From positions 2,597,757-2,661,756 of the forward strand of contig NZ_AP024619.1 in the NCBI RefSeq assembly GCF_019668485.1: 64,000 nucleotides of DNA. Direction: 5' to 3'. Each line of letters opens with the position of its first letter. Position 1 is the stretch's first letter. The position numbers and the translations under genes were made by a program. Source of the DNA: Gelria sp. Kuro-4 (GTDB lineage Bacteria; Bacillota; DTU030; DUMP01). Below the pieces are notes generated by a model. The model saw only the letters and a list, made by a program, of their open reading frames with translations. It did no database searches and had not been told where the DNA came from. This document shows positions 25,748 through 33,500 of this stretch, one piece after another.

Positions 25748-26140
25748 TTACGCCCGGACGGGTTGGAACAGCTCAATGTGTTCGCCGTCCGGGCCCCGTA
25801 GAAACGCAATCTGGCAGCCACCCCCCACAGCGCGCGGCGCTTCGTCCTCCAGCCGGACACCGGCACGCTTAAGGGCCGCCAGTGCAGCAGCGATGTCCGT
25901 CACGGTGAGCGCCAGGTGCGCCACCGGCCCGTCGGCAGCGGGCACCGCCTTATCCTGGTACTCCAGGAGTTCAATCTGCCCCGTCCCCACAGCGATGAGA
26001 GCCTTGCGCAGGCCCCGCTGCGGAATCTCGCTCCGTTCGCGCAGGGTAAGCCCCAACGTCGCGGTGTAAAAGGCCAGCGAACGCTCCAGGTCGGCCACCT
26101 GCACCGCCACGTGCTCAAAGCCGGTGATGCCAAGGTTCAT
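25748..26140 (-). CDS. VOC (glyoxalase-fold) family protein
   Basis: A 130-aa vicinal-oxygen-chelate protein related to glyoxalase I and methylmalonyl-CoA epimerase. Metal-site residues fit: His in ITGFEHVAVQVADLERSLAFY, Glu in QIELLEYQDKA, His in GPVAHLALTVTD, and Glu in GPDGEHIELFQP. It starts at the ATG at 26140, with AGGGGGAAGGAAG upstream. The open frame continues upstream without a stop but into degraded sequence, which I do not count. The reaction is unknown; epimerase or lyase are equally open. Confidence 0.87.
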   Translation of the reverse strand: MNLGITGFEHVAVQVADLERSLAFYTATLGLTLRERSEIPQRGLRKALIAVGTGQIELLEYQDKAVPAADGPVAHLALTVTDIAAALAALKRAGVRLEDEAPRAVGGGCQIAFLRGPDGEHIELFQPVRA

Positions 26141-26562
26141 CTTCCTTCCCCCTCGTATTGTTCTTAGAAAAAGCGCCTTTGGACTAGATTCGCCGGCCCG
26201 CCGTGCCCCGTATTCCTCGATCAGCCGTTCTACTAAACTGCTGCCCGGCGCGGGGACCCGCAGCATGAGCGTGCCCTGGCCCAGGTCGATCCGGGCCAAC
26301 GCCGTCGCCGCCCCTGCGTTAATGCGGCGGCCAAAACCGCGGCCGCCGGACTAGGTAGGTAAAGGATCTCGCAGGCATCGGCGACCCGCGTCTGAGCAGG
26401 ACCGGGCGGGGTGAGCAAGTCCACTGTGTCGTTTTCACCGGCGGCGGTCATGCCGCTTGAAGGCCGAGGCCACAGGCAGTCGCCACCTCCACCAGAGCGT
26501 TTTCAATCCGCCCCGGCTCCGCCGGCCGCAGGAAGACCCAGGCGAAGAAGAAACATGTCGCA
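26141..26562 (-). pseudogene. Frameshifted remnant of an unidentified gene
   Basis: Three coding-looking segments lie in different minus-strand frames: one ending about 26450 (FFAWVFLRPAEPGRIENALV then VEVATACGLGLQAA), one from 26451 (TVDLLTPPGPAQTRVADACE then ILYLPSPAAAVLAA), and one running to 26140 (ATALARIDLGQGTLMLRV then PGSSLVERLIEEYGARR). Together they look like one protein of about 140 aa broken by two frameshifts. I do not recognise the family. The last segment reads in frame into the VOC gene. Confidence 0.4.
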
Positions 26563-26606: not shown

Positions 26607-26735
26607 CTAAACAGGTATTCGTCGGGCGGCAGGTTTATCCTGCTCCGCAGGAACTGTCAAGTCATCCACCTCGTCCGGCGACACTTCCGCCGGCATGTTC
26701 GGCCAAATGTGAAGTTTCCGGTGCTTGCTTTCCAA
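26607..26735 (-). CDS. Possible 42-aa small ORF opposite the candidate sRNA
   Basis: A TTG start at 26735 has GGAGAG five bases upstream. It opens a 42-residue hydrophilic frame beginning with Leu/Met-ESKHRKLHIWPNMPAEV and ending in AARRIPV. The N-terminal third is basic and the middle acidic (SPDEVDD). No homolog is known to me. The frame is open for a further 15 codons upstream, so it may instead be the tail of a lost gene. It lies between the decayed gene at 26562 and the membrane-peptide locus, with its start on the promoter of the convergent RNA. Confidence 0.3.
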   Translation of the reverse strand: MESKHRKLHIWPNMPAEVSPDEVDDLTVPAEQDKPAARRIPV

Positions 26736-26753
26736 CAGCTCTCCGTATAAAAT
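26725..26753 (+). promoter_or_regulatory. Candidate promoter of a small RNA
   Basis: TTGCTT (26725-26730) is followed after 17 bases by TAAAAT (26748-26753), within TATAAAAT. It points into the hairpin-terminator region at 26758-26852. Confidence 0.45.
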
Positions 26754-26755
26754 AA

Positions 26756-26852
26756 GAGCAGGAAGTCCCGCAAGACTTCCTGCTCCCGGAGGGCATAGCG
26801 ACCCGGGGGTAGGCGATTACTCGATTTGCCCGCTTAATAGCGGGCTATTTTT
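26756..26852 (+). ncRNA. Candidate small RNA convergent to a membrane-peptide gene
   Basis: Downstream of the promoter is a 10-base perfect stem, GCAGGAAGTC (26758-26767) with GACTTCCTGC (26774-26783). About 40 unpaired bases follow, then an intrinsic terminator, GCCCGC (about 26828-26833) with GCGGGC (26840-26845), followed by TATTTTTT. The predicted RNA is about 95 nt. Its end overlaps the 3' end of the 31-codon minus-strand gene by about eight bases. This layout resembles RatA/SR4-type antitoxin RNAs, but function is inference. Confidence 0.45.
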
Positions 26853-26940
26853 TCGACTTGTACTGGAAGTACAGCCGGAGTAGCACAATGGCTACCAACG
26901 GCGCAACGGCGAATTCAATTGGTCCGATCTTGAGTTCCAA
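26845..26940 (-). CDS. 31-aa hydrophobic membrane peptide (candidate type I toxin)
   Basis: The minus-strand TTG at 26940 opens a 31-codon frame. The N-terminus is short and mildly charged (ELKIGPIEF). A hydrophobic segment follows, AVAPLVAIVLLRLYF, and then the basic tail QYKSKK. The ribosome site GAGAGGGGG is just upstream. It is predicted to be a single-span membrane peptide. The leader (TSS about 27038) contains GGCACCCC (complement of 26998-27005), which can pair with GGGGTGCC at the ribosome site (26944-26951) and would hide it. Size, tail and RBS sequestration are features of type I toxins. I know of no certain homolog. Confidence 0.6.
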   Translation of the reverse strand: MELKIGPIEFAVAPLVAIVLLRLYFQYKSKK

Positions 26941-27045
26941 CGCGGCACCCCCTCTCCCGAGTTCTCCCCGGGCCGCATGCCCCTCGGCCACAGAGAAGGG
27001 GTGCCTCCTATCCCCGAATCGGCAGGTTTCGACCTGTCCACTCCA

Positions 27046-27054
27046 ATTATACCA
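27046..27054 (-). promoter_or_regulatory. Extended -10 promoter of the membrane-peptide gene
   Basis: On the minus strand the sequence is TGGTATAAT, a perfect extended -10. The leader to the TTG start would be about 100 bases, long for a 31-codon gene. Confidence 0.6.
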
Positions 27055-27238: not shown

Positions 27239-28831
27239 GTGACGCTGCGTTACCTGTTCAAAACCCACCTGGGTATGATGGTCGTGGCACTGGTGCTAGT
27301 ACTGGCCCTAGCAGGCTGCAGCACCGCGCCCACCGCCCCGCCTGCGGGAGGCGATGCTGCGACACCGGAAGAGAACCCGGCTCCCGGGGCACCGCCACCG
27401 CCCGCTGCGCCCCTGAAGGTGAAGGAGAAAGCCAAGATCAGCCTTCCGCCCGGCCCCGTCGGCTACATCGACCACACCCTTTCCCCGGACGGCCGGTGGG
27501 CAGTGGTGCTCACTACACCGGGCGGGAAAAACCCAGTCAGGAACAAGGCCGGGCTCTGGCTCTACCCGGTCGGGCAAGGAGAAGGAAGGGTGCTCGCCGA
27601 AACGAGCGAACAAGACTACGCCGCCGGCCGCCTACTGTTGCGGTCGCTGGGGTGGGCTGAAGACAACACGCTCATCTTCGCCCGCCAGGGCACGCAGCCG
27701 GACGGAGCGCACAAGGGTCAGCGGGGTTTGGTTTTCTTTACCGTCAAGGCCGGCGGCGCCGCCACTGCCCCCGCGGAGGTCGCCTGGCTCCCGGTCCAAG
27801 GCGGTTACGTCACTGAGGTGTACCCGAGCCTCGCGCAAGGGGCGGTCTTCGTCCATGCGGACAAGGCCATCTGGCGGGTGCCCCTGGACGGGGCTCCACC
27901 CACCGCCCTACGCCAAAACCTCCCCAGCTACGACGGGCTCTTTTACCCCCGCCTGTCGCCGGCCGGTACGCACTTCGCCTACGAGCTGTGGGAACCGAAT
28001 AAGAGCGGGATTTATGTGCTGGATACAGTCACCGAAGTGGAGACCTGCCTAGCGCCGCGCGCCGAAACCATGAGCTTCGGGCCGCAGTGGTCCCCGGACG
28101 GCCGTTACCTGGCCTACTACACGGCCCCCACGAAAAAGGGCAGCACCGACCCCTACGACCGATACGACATCATCATGGGCGAGGACACGCCGCTCCCCAT
28201 CGCTGTTCAAGTCACCATCGCCACACCGGACGGCCAGAAGGTCGCTGAGCTTTCTCTCCCGGATAAGAAACTGGGCTACTTCACCTGGTCTGTGGACGGT
28301 ACTCACCTGGCCTTCATCGCCGGCCAGGTGCAGGGGAAGTCGCCGGCGGAGTCGGGCGAACTCCCCGCCTTCCAGGACACCTCGCTCTATCTGGCGGATG
28401 TGACCGGAAAACTGACCGAGGTAGGCAGCCTGGGGGCCGCCCCGCGGCAGATTATCACCCTCCCGGCGGTCTTCGCCGAGGAGCCTGCGGTCTATCTCTT
28501 GACCGCGGAGAAAGACGGCAACGCCCTCTGGCTGGCCCGGGCGGGCAAAGAACCGCTGCGCCTTACGCCCCCGGGTGAGACGAAGGGTTACTGGTCCGGC
28601 TATCCCTGGCTGACCGTAGGCGAGAGCCTCTTTCTCACCTTTGACGCAGCCAATTACAACCCGGCCGGCAGCCGGCAGATGGTGCAGGTATGGCAGGATC
28701 AGGTACTGCCGGTGGTTAAAGGCGAGCTTACGGGCTTTCTGGCCGGTAGAAGCGGTTCGCGTCTGGCCTACCTCCAAGAAGATCCGGACGGGAAAAAGGG
28801 TGAACTGGTCATCTTTGAGCTAGGCCAGTAA
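27239..28831 (+). CDS. TolB-like beta-propeller lipoprotein
   Basis: A 530-aa exported lipoprotein with lipobox LALAGC (Cys27), then a Pro/Ala-rich linker (about 28-60). The large domain has repeats of the TolB/WD40-like kind: DHTLSPDGRWAVVL, FYPRLSPAGTHFAYELW, FGPQWSPDGRYLAYYT and GYFTWSVDGTHLAFIAG. These SPDG...A blades predict a six- or seven-bladed propeller at the outer face of the membrane. The start is a GTG with GGGGGAGG seven bases upstream. The gene stands alone. The ligand is unknown; such proteins often bind proteins or sugars. Confidence 0.85.
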   Translation: MTLRYLFKTHLGMMVVALVLVLALAGCSTAPTAPPAGGDAATPEENPAPGAPPPPAAPLKVKEKAKISLPPGPVGYIDHTLSPDGRWAVVLTTPGGKNPVRNKAGLWLYPVGQGEGRVLAETSEQDYAAGRLLLRSLGWAEDNTLIFARQGTQPDGAHKGQRGLVFFTVKAGGAATAPAEVAWLPVQGGYVTEVYPSLAQGAVFVHADKAIWRVPLDGAPPTALRQNLPSYDGLFYPRLSPAGTHFAYELWEPNKSGIYVLDTVTEVETCLAPRAETMSFGPQWSPDGRYLAYYTAPTKKGSTDPYDRYDIIMGEDTPLPIAVQVTIATPDGQKVAELSLPDKKLGYFTWSVDGTHLAFIAGQVQGKSPAESGELPAFQDTSLYLADVTGKLTEVGSLGAAPRQIITLPAVFAEEPAVYLLTAEKDGNALWLARAGKEPLRLTPPGETKGYWSGYPWLTVGESLFLTFDAANYNPAGSRQMVQVWQDQVLPVVKGELTGFLAGRSGSRLAYLQEDPDGKKGELVIFELGQ

Positions 28832-33344: not shown

Positions 33345-33500
33345 CTCTTATCCAGAGAGGTGGAGGGACTGGCCCTGTGAAACCTCGGCAACCAGCCGCT
33401 CATGCGCGGCCCGGTGCCAATTCCAGCAGGACGAGAGGTGCTGTCCTGGCAGATGAGAGTGCGGAATTAAACCCCTCCGTCTGTCGGAGGGGTTTTTGTT
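33345..33500 (+). ncRNA. SAM-I (S-box) riboswitch with terminator
   Basis: The leader begins CTCTTATCCAGAGAGGTGGAGGGA, seen here in part, the S-box P1/P2 signature. It continues through GGCCCTGTGAAACCTCGGCAACC and GGTGCCAATTCC to GATGAGAG. An intrinsic terminator follows: CCCCTCCG (33472-33479) with CGGAGGGG (33485-33492), then TTTTTGTT. With SAM bound, transcription should stop; without SAM it reads into metN. The class and direction of control are well established. Confidence 0.96.

Follow-up and report, generated by a model that had tools for sequence, protein, structure and literature searches.

A peptide gene and a predicted convergent small RNA

The locus described here occupies positions 26725 to 27054 of a 64,000-nucleotide stretch of the Gelria sp. 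Kuro-4 chromosome, hereafter the window, and comprises a minus-strand gene for a small hydrophobic peptide and a predicted small RNA (sRNA) that converges on the 3' end of that gene. It belongs to a family whose 12 intact copies are divided between two genomes from separate bacterial families. The peptide, the stem opposite its ribosome site and the convergent sRNA occur together across these copies, and this co-conservation supports the proposal of an earlier sequence-only reading that the locus is type I toxin-antitoxin-like. Several features lie beyond that reading, namely that the locus is multicopy, that the hairpin at 26754-26787 doubles as a terminator of the messenger RNA (mRNA), and that the mRNA leader is complementary to its own 3' untranslated region (UTR).

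The peptide gene (26845-26940, minus strand) has the extent first reported for it, 31 codons encoding a single hydrophobic span with an IAP-x-VA-L core and a basic C-terminus. Its start codon turned out to be TTG rather than ATG, so that the peptide reads (M/L)ELKIGPIEFAVAPLVAIVLLRLYFQYKSKK and the translation of the interval is LELKIGPIEFAVAPLVAIVLLRLYFQYKSKK. The perfect extended -10 element attributed to the gene, TGGTATAAT, is read directly at 27054-27046 on the same strand, and TATAAT stands at the equivalent place in every intact copy but L003. The 5' end of the transcript is inferred to lie near 27039. The predicted mRNA of ∼295 nt would begin with a leader of ∼100 nt, which contains a 5'-end hairpin (GGACAGGUcgaaACCUGCC, 27021-27039) found by folding and accompanied by compensatory changes among homologues. 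Further along the leader is an anti-Shine-Dalgarno (anti-SD) arm at 26998-27005, predicted to sequester the Shine-Dalgarno (SD) region GAGGGGGTGCC (26944-26954). The 8-base complement noted earlier between leader and ribosome site is exact in the window, GGCACCCC (27005-26998) with GGGGTGCC (26951-26944), and most homologues have 8-12 bp in its place. Taken alone, the window match is only modestly unlikely, because 12 of 500 shuffled leaders also attain 8 bp. An intrinsic terminator of the mRNA lies at 26754-26787 on the minus strand; it was called by a terminator scan, and its hairpin is kept with compensatory changes in homologues. The U-rich tail of this terminator is, on direct reading, the complement of the sRNA -10 region. 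The window mRNA folds better than all 200 of its shuffled versions (z -5.7).

On the plus strand, the promoter, hairpin and terminator described in the sequence-only reading as the source of an RNA of ∼95 nt over the 3' end of the gene are borne out in the sequence. The promoter (26725-26753) is sigma-70-like, with TTGCTT at 26725-26730 and TAAAAT at 26748-26753 separated by 17 bp; a consensus promoter scanner made no call for it, as it is too weak relative to the consensus. Homologous sRNA promoters read TTGACA-17-CATAAT at the equivalent place and are near-consensus in the second genome. The predicted sRNA (26757-26853, ∼95 nt from its inferred 5' end) lies wholly inside the mRNA 3' UTR and the last codons of the gene, to which it is perfectly complementary. 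It ends at an intrinsic terminator, GCCCGCTTAATAGCGGGC followed by a T-run (26828-26853), which was called by the terminator scan and shows compensatory changes among copies; the lysine codons just before the peptide stop are, on direct reading, the complement of its U-run. In the window copy the scanner detected the 5' hairpin of the sRNA as well as this terminator, and the sRNA folds better than 200 of 200 shuffles (z -4.3).

Copies of the locus in two genomes

The window genome (G000) carries eight copies, five of them with an intact peptide. A search of this genome with the DNA of the locus returned six copies besides that of the window, and a peptide profile added the eighth, L020, whose DNA is barely alignable to the window copy yet retains all the elements. 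The second genome, the metagenome-assembled genome Bacillota bacterium FK_Sedi_A_Bin.38 (G174), belongs to another family of the same phylum and was first seen as a marginal peptide match, L026, which proved real. It holds 12 copies of the sRNA, seven with an intact peptide, and two of its loci stand in tandem 0.6 kb apart. An RNA model, R1, recovers 8 copies in G000 and 12 in G174; it serves as a sequence and motif model only and omits the 5' hairpin, because the arms of that hairpin are out of register from one genome to the other. Three matches from the tail of the first peptide search of the phylum (L023, L024 and L025) were rejected, as they lie inside longer unrelated frames and lack an sRNA.

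The distribution of the family is narrow. Among 398 sampled genomes of the phylum, the peptide profile and the RNA model find it in G000 and G174 only, and close relatives of G000 lack it. An exact scan for the sRNA motif across 84,980 species, from which the records of the window genome itself were possibly left out, returned G174 alone. A motif scan of IMG/VR and a profile scan found no member, and viral, plasmid and phage collections likewise yielded none.

Intact peptides have 31-35 residues, a maximal 17-residue hydropathy of 2.1-2.8 and a C-terminal charge of +3 to +6. Their N-termini follow M-(E)-x and their tails are basic; the core, (I/V/L)-A-P-x-V-A, has few exceptions. The ratio of nonsynonymous to synonymous change is below 1 for every pair, with pooled pN/pS of 0.54 within G000 and 0.50 within G174; the alignments thus indicate that the peptide is selected as a peptide. 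All 12 intact copies retain the promoter, 5' hairpin and terminator of the sRNA together with its core motif, which reads about GGAGRGYRTWRYRRCCCGRG; both hairpins have also undergone compensatory change, a pattern indicating that the sRNA is selected as an RNA. Peptide, anti-SD stem, sRNA promoter, hairpins and terminator all persist despite strong divergence of the DNA. An anti-SD arm of 8-12 bp is present in 11 of 13 leaders, and its sequence shifts in step with that of the SD. The stem was scored by the complements of each copy rather than by columns of the alignment (A5), because the SD is offset by 2 nt between groups.

An intact peptide is always accompanied by an intact sRNA gene, and the converse does not hold. 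Disruption of the peptide frame with the flanks kept, which the sequence-only reading had counted against a type I system, does occur in eight broken copies (L005, L006, L007, L030, L033, L047, L049 and L066). All eight have lost the peptide, whether truncated, deleted, rearranged or interrupted by an insertion, and seven of them retain the sRNA 5' module. Loss of the toxin with retention of the sRNA is the imbalance that a toxin-antitoxin pair would be expected to show. The decayed copies take several forms. In L030 and L033, both in G174, the frame is split by the same ∼55-bp insertion (CCGCTCTCGCACCTCCTGTGCTTCGCGGTGCC...). L007 (1510-1620) is a deletion derivative in which part of the toxin leader is fused directly to the sRNA 5' module, with the sRNA promoter region kept and the peptide gone. 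The decayed copy L006 (1393-1600) lies ∼20 bp downstream of a tRNA-Sec gene, which is itself near a selB gene.

Leader and 3' UTR pairing as a candidate switch

The new element of the locus, as comparison of the copies indicates, is pairing within the mRNA between the leader and its own 3' UTR, with an sRNA that carries the leader motif. In the window, the leader segment GGGGCAUGCGGCCCGGGG (26966-26983, minus strand) sits in the loop of the anti-SD hairpin and is nearly identical to the core motif of the sRNA. Its partner in the 3' UTR, CCCCCGGGUCGCUAUGCCCUCC (26788-26809, minus strand), is the perfect complement of that core motif. Leader and sRNA thus share one motif, the sRNA being complementary to the 3' UTR. 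The complementarity between leader and 3' UTR spans 17-19 bp at a distance of ∼200 nt and covaries. In an alignment of 12 mRNAs, the 18-pair long-range helix has 92.6% of its cells paired, and five of its pairs have changed on both sides. When the partner is slid by 1-3 columns, pairing over the whole structure (the long-range helix and two hairpins) falls from 89.5% to 45-61%. Duplexes formed by each copy's own pair of segments reach -26 to -40 kcal/mol compared with shuffle means of -12 to -24, and no duplex is equalled by more than 3 of 1000 shuffles.

The differences between leader and sRNA run in one direction. Read from sRNA to leader, they comprise 18 A>G, nine C>T, one T>C, no G>A and five transversions. 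In 27 of the 33, which are not independent events because the copies are related, the leader carries an A>G or C>T change that preserves a G-U pair with the 3' UTR. The C>T changes sit at several distinct positions in different copies. Such a bias would be expected of a leader constrained to pair with the 3' UTR.

Folding models suggest how such pairing could bear on translation. With the leader and coding region alone, the SD is paired in most copies, mainly to the leader. In nested folds of the complete mRNA, the long-range pairing cannot form together with the anti-SD hairpin, and for 11 of 12 copies these two states lie within 0.3-6.3 kcal/mol of each other. When the long-range pairing is imposed on the fold, the SD pairs less with the leader (mean 0.12, compared with 0.54) and becomes more open (mean openness 0.29, compared with 0.14). 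When the 3' UTR is masked in the model, mimicking a bound sRNA, the leader closes again. Pairing of the sRNA with the translation start region is no better than that of shuffles, and the sRNA should therefore act through the 3' UTR.

A mechanism can be proposed on this basis. The nascent mRNA would fold with its ribosome site shut by the anti-SD hairpin. Once transcribed, the 3' UTR could pair with the leader, excluding the hairpin and making the ribosome site more accessible. The sRNA, mimicking the leader and perfectly complementary at sites where the leader forms G-U pairs, would take the 3' UTR first, leaving the leader closed and exposing the sRNA/mRNA duplex to RNase III. A shortfall of sRNA would then allow the peptide to be made and to act on the membrane. 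On balance, and with some reserve, the locus is probably type I toxin-antitoxin-like, from a family outside the searched libraries, in which the sRNA blocks the pairing of leader and 3' UTR. A more specific formulation is offered tentatively and falls somewhat short of probable: a competition-regulated family of type I toxins in which the antitoxin RNA mimics the leader, and the 3' UTR both activates translation in cis and is the sole target of the antitoxin. In such a competition, freedom from wobble pairs would let the antitoxin win the 3' UTR.

The weakest step is the direction of the switch, in which the long-range pairing is taken as the ON state. Denial of the 3' UTR is favoured because of the forced-pairing and masking folds, together with the lack of sRNA pairing at the start region. 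The direction could be the reverse, because hok and AapA mRNAs are OFF when paired end to end (PMC6733600). Several other observations also weigh against the proposal as it stands. SD openness reaches only ∼0.3 even in the long-range state, forcing that state costs 19 kcal/mol in L020, and the nested folding used does not admit a pseudoknot in which both pairings are formed together. L002 and L003 have perfect anti-SD runs of just 5-6 bp, not above shuffles, and L003 has retained peptide and sRNA while its usual mRNA promoter and the 5' half of the leader are gone. The window copy may itself be attenuated, given its TTG start and weak sRNA -35. Copies within a genome are related, and counts of them are not counts of independent events.

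The most serious rival keeps the same type I locus and inverts the switch: pairing of leader and 3' UTR would give an inert full-length mRNA activated by 3' trimming, and the sRNA would mainly drive decay by RNase III, as RatA does. The precedents of hok and AapA (PMC6733600) speak for it, as do the SD that stays largely paired in the forced long-range state and the ∼95-nt overlap of sRNA and mRNA 3' ends, which resembles TxpA/RatA (PMC6562991). We nevertheless consider it unlikely, since the hok and AapA antitoxins are directed at the leader region while the present antitoxin mimics the leader sequence and is aimed at its 3' partner, and since the long-range pairing takes away the anti-SD pairing of the leader and adds none. 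The lack of a match to any toxin profile would also suit a small non-toxin membrane peptide with a regulatory or stress role, its dose adjusted by the antisense RNA. Dispersed copies, a tandem pair, asymmetric decay and a double layer of silencing better suit a selfish or addictive module and make such a role improbable. That the locus is multicopy, intergenic and confined to two sampled genomes would fit a repetitive element, such as a miniature inverted-repeat transposable element or an RNA-like repeat, with an incidental peptide frame. This last account is hardly credible in view of the synonymous bias of the changes, a frame kept where the DNA is hardly alignable, and the conserved placement of SD and start, two promoters and two terminators.

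Genomic setting and comparison with known systems

The immediate neighbours of the window locus are an open reading frame (ORF) with a glyoxalase domain (25748-26299) and a 530-aa PD40-repeat lipoprotein-like ORF (27239-28831), and the earlier description of the locus as flanked by pseudogenes fails for them. Genes for PIN-domain and DUF5615 proteins, typical type II toxins, occur near three copies, at L010:3265-3624, L010:7158-7556 and L013:2420-2857. Some toxin promoters of G174 (e.g. L028, L031 and L044) contain a near Gram-positive LexA box (CGAAGGTATGTTCG and similar) between -35 and -10. Four of the five sites in G174 within two mismatches of CGAACATATGTTCG fall in toxin promoters, which are homologous copies, while a reversed-pattern control gives nine sites. 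The recA upstream region of G174 has just a loose GAACATCAGTTT, and the box was not seen in the G000 copies; SOS control of the G174 toxin promoters is possible. Elsewhere in the window, at 33345-33459, lies an S-adenosylmethionine riboswitch (Rfam RF00162, 94.6 bits).

The peptides have no significant family match in Pfam, NCBIfam, PHROGs or PADLOC. An Rfam scan of the locus region gave chance-level matches only, and a literature search of open papers did not find the family described. The nearest analogues are the Fst and BsrG/TxpA systems. Fst/par of pAD1 and the Fst/Ldr group share convergent promoters and a peptide of ∼33 residues with one span, an Ala-Pro and a charged tail, and the Fst/par toxin mRNA likewise has a 5'-end helix and an SD-sequestering stem-loop (PMC7472228, PMC8309996). 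Membership of the Fst family was considered and rejected. Fst_toxin (PF13955) does not match the G000 or G174 peptides at E<=10 and is absent from an hmmscan of 11 peptides. The PXXXG motif is missing, as the family has AP followed by x-V-A/V-L/I without the glycine at P+4 that is essential in Fst. The direct repeats of par are not found either; the repeats of the family are inverted, and pairing of sRNA with the start region is not above shuffles. Fst/par differs further in its shared bidirectional terminator, which has no counterpart here, and in an RNA that pairs at the start site where the present sRNA mimics the leader.

The antitoxins of hok/Sok and aapA/IsoA target the 5' region of the mRNA, whereas here the antitoxin is aimed at the 3' side of the long-range pairing. 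Both systems likewise have long-distance 5'-3' pairing of the mRNA and metastable anti-SD hairpins, and aapA is also multicopy (PMC6733600). timP/TimR similarly has mutually exclusive mRNA folds, one of them translation-competent, and an sRNA that destabilizes that fold (PMC11228461), but the timP structure is a pseudoknot inside its 5' UTR rather than a pairing of leader and 3' UTR.

The likeness to TxpA/RatA and BsrG/SR4 drawn in the sequence-only reading is apt for geometry and does not extend to the peptide. These Bacillus subtilis systems likewise have a toxin mRNA and an antisense RNA that converge and share ∼100 nt of overlap at the 3' ends, and binding of SR4 to the 3' end changes the structure around the SD (PMC6562991). 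The peptide sequence appears to differ from TxpA, BsrG, BsrE and YonT; compared by profile, it reached significance with no toxin family of Pfam, NCBIfam or PHROGs. The many chromosomal copies of the present family are a further difference, and conserved end-to-end pairing with mimicry of the leader by the sRNA is not described for BsrG/SR4 and TxpA/RatA in the literature consulted. The family would add an uncatalogued, multicopy pairing of peptide and antisense RNA beyond the usual enteric, Bacillus and Helicobacter models, and its 12 diverged intact copies form a natural set, covariation within which informs on both end-to-end pairing of the mRNA and mimicry by the antitoxin. Systems such as BsrG and TxpA pose the live question of how translation at the 5' end can be controlled by an antisense RNA that binds the 3' end alone, and the family makes a specific answer testable.
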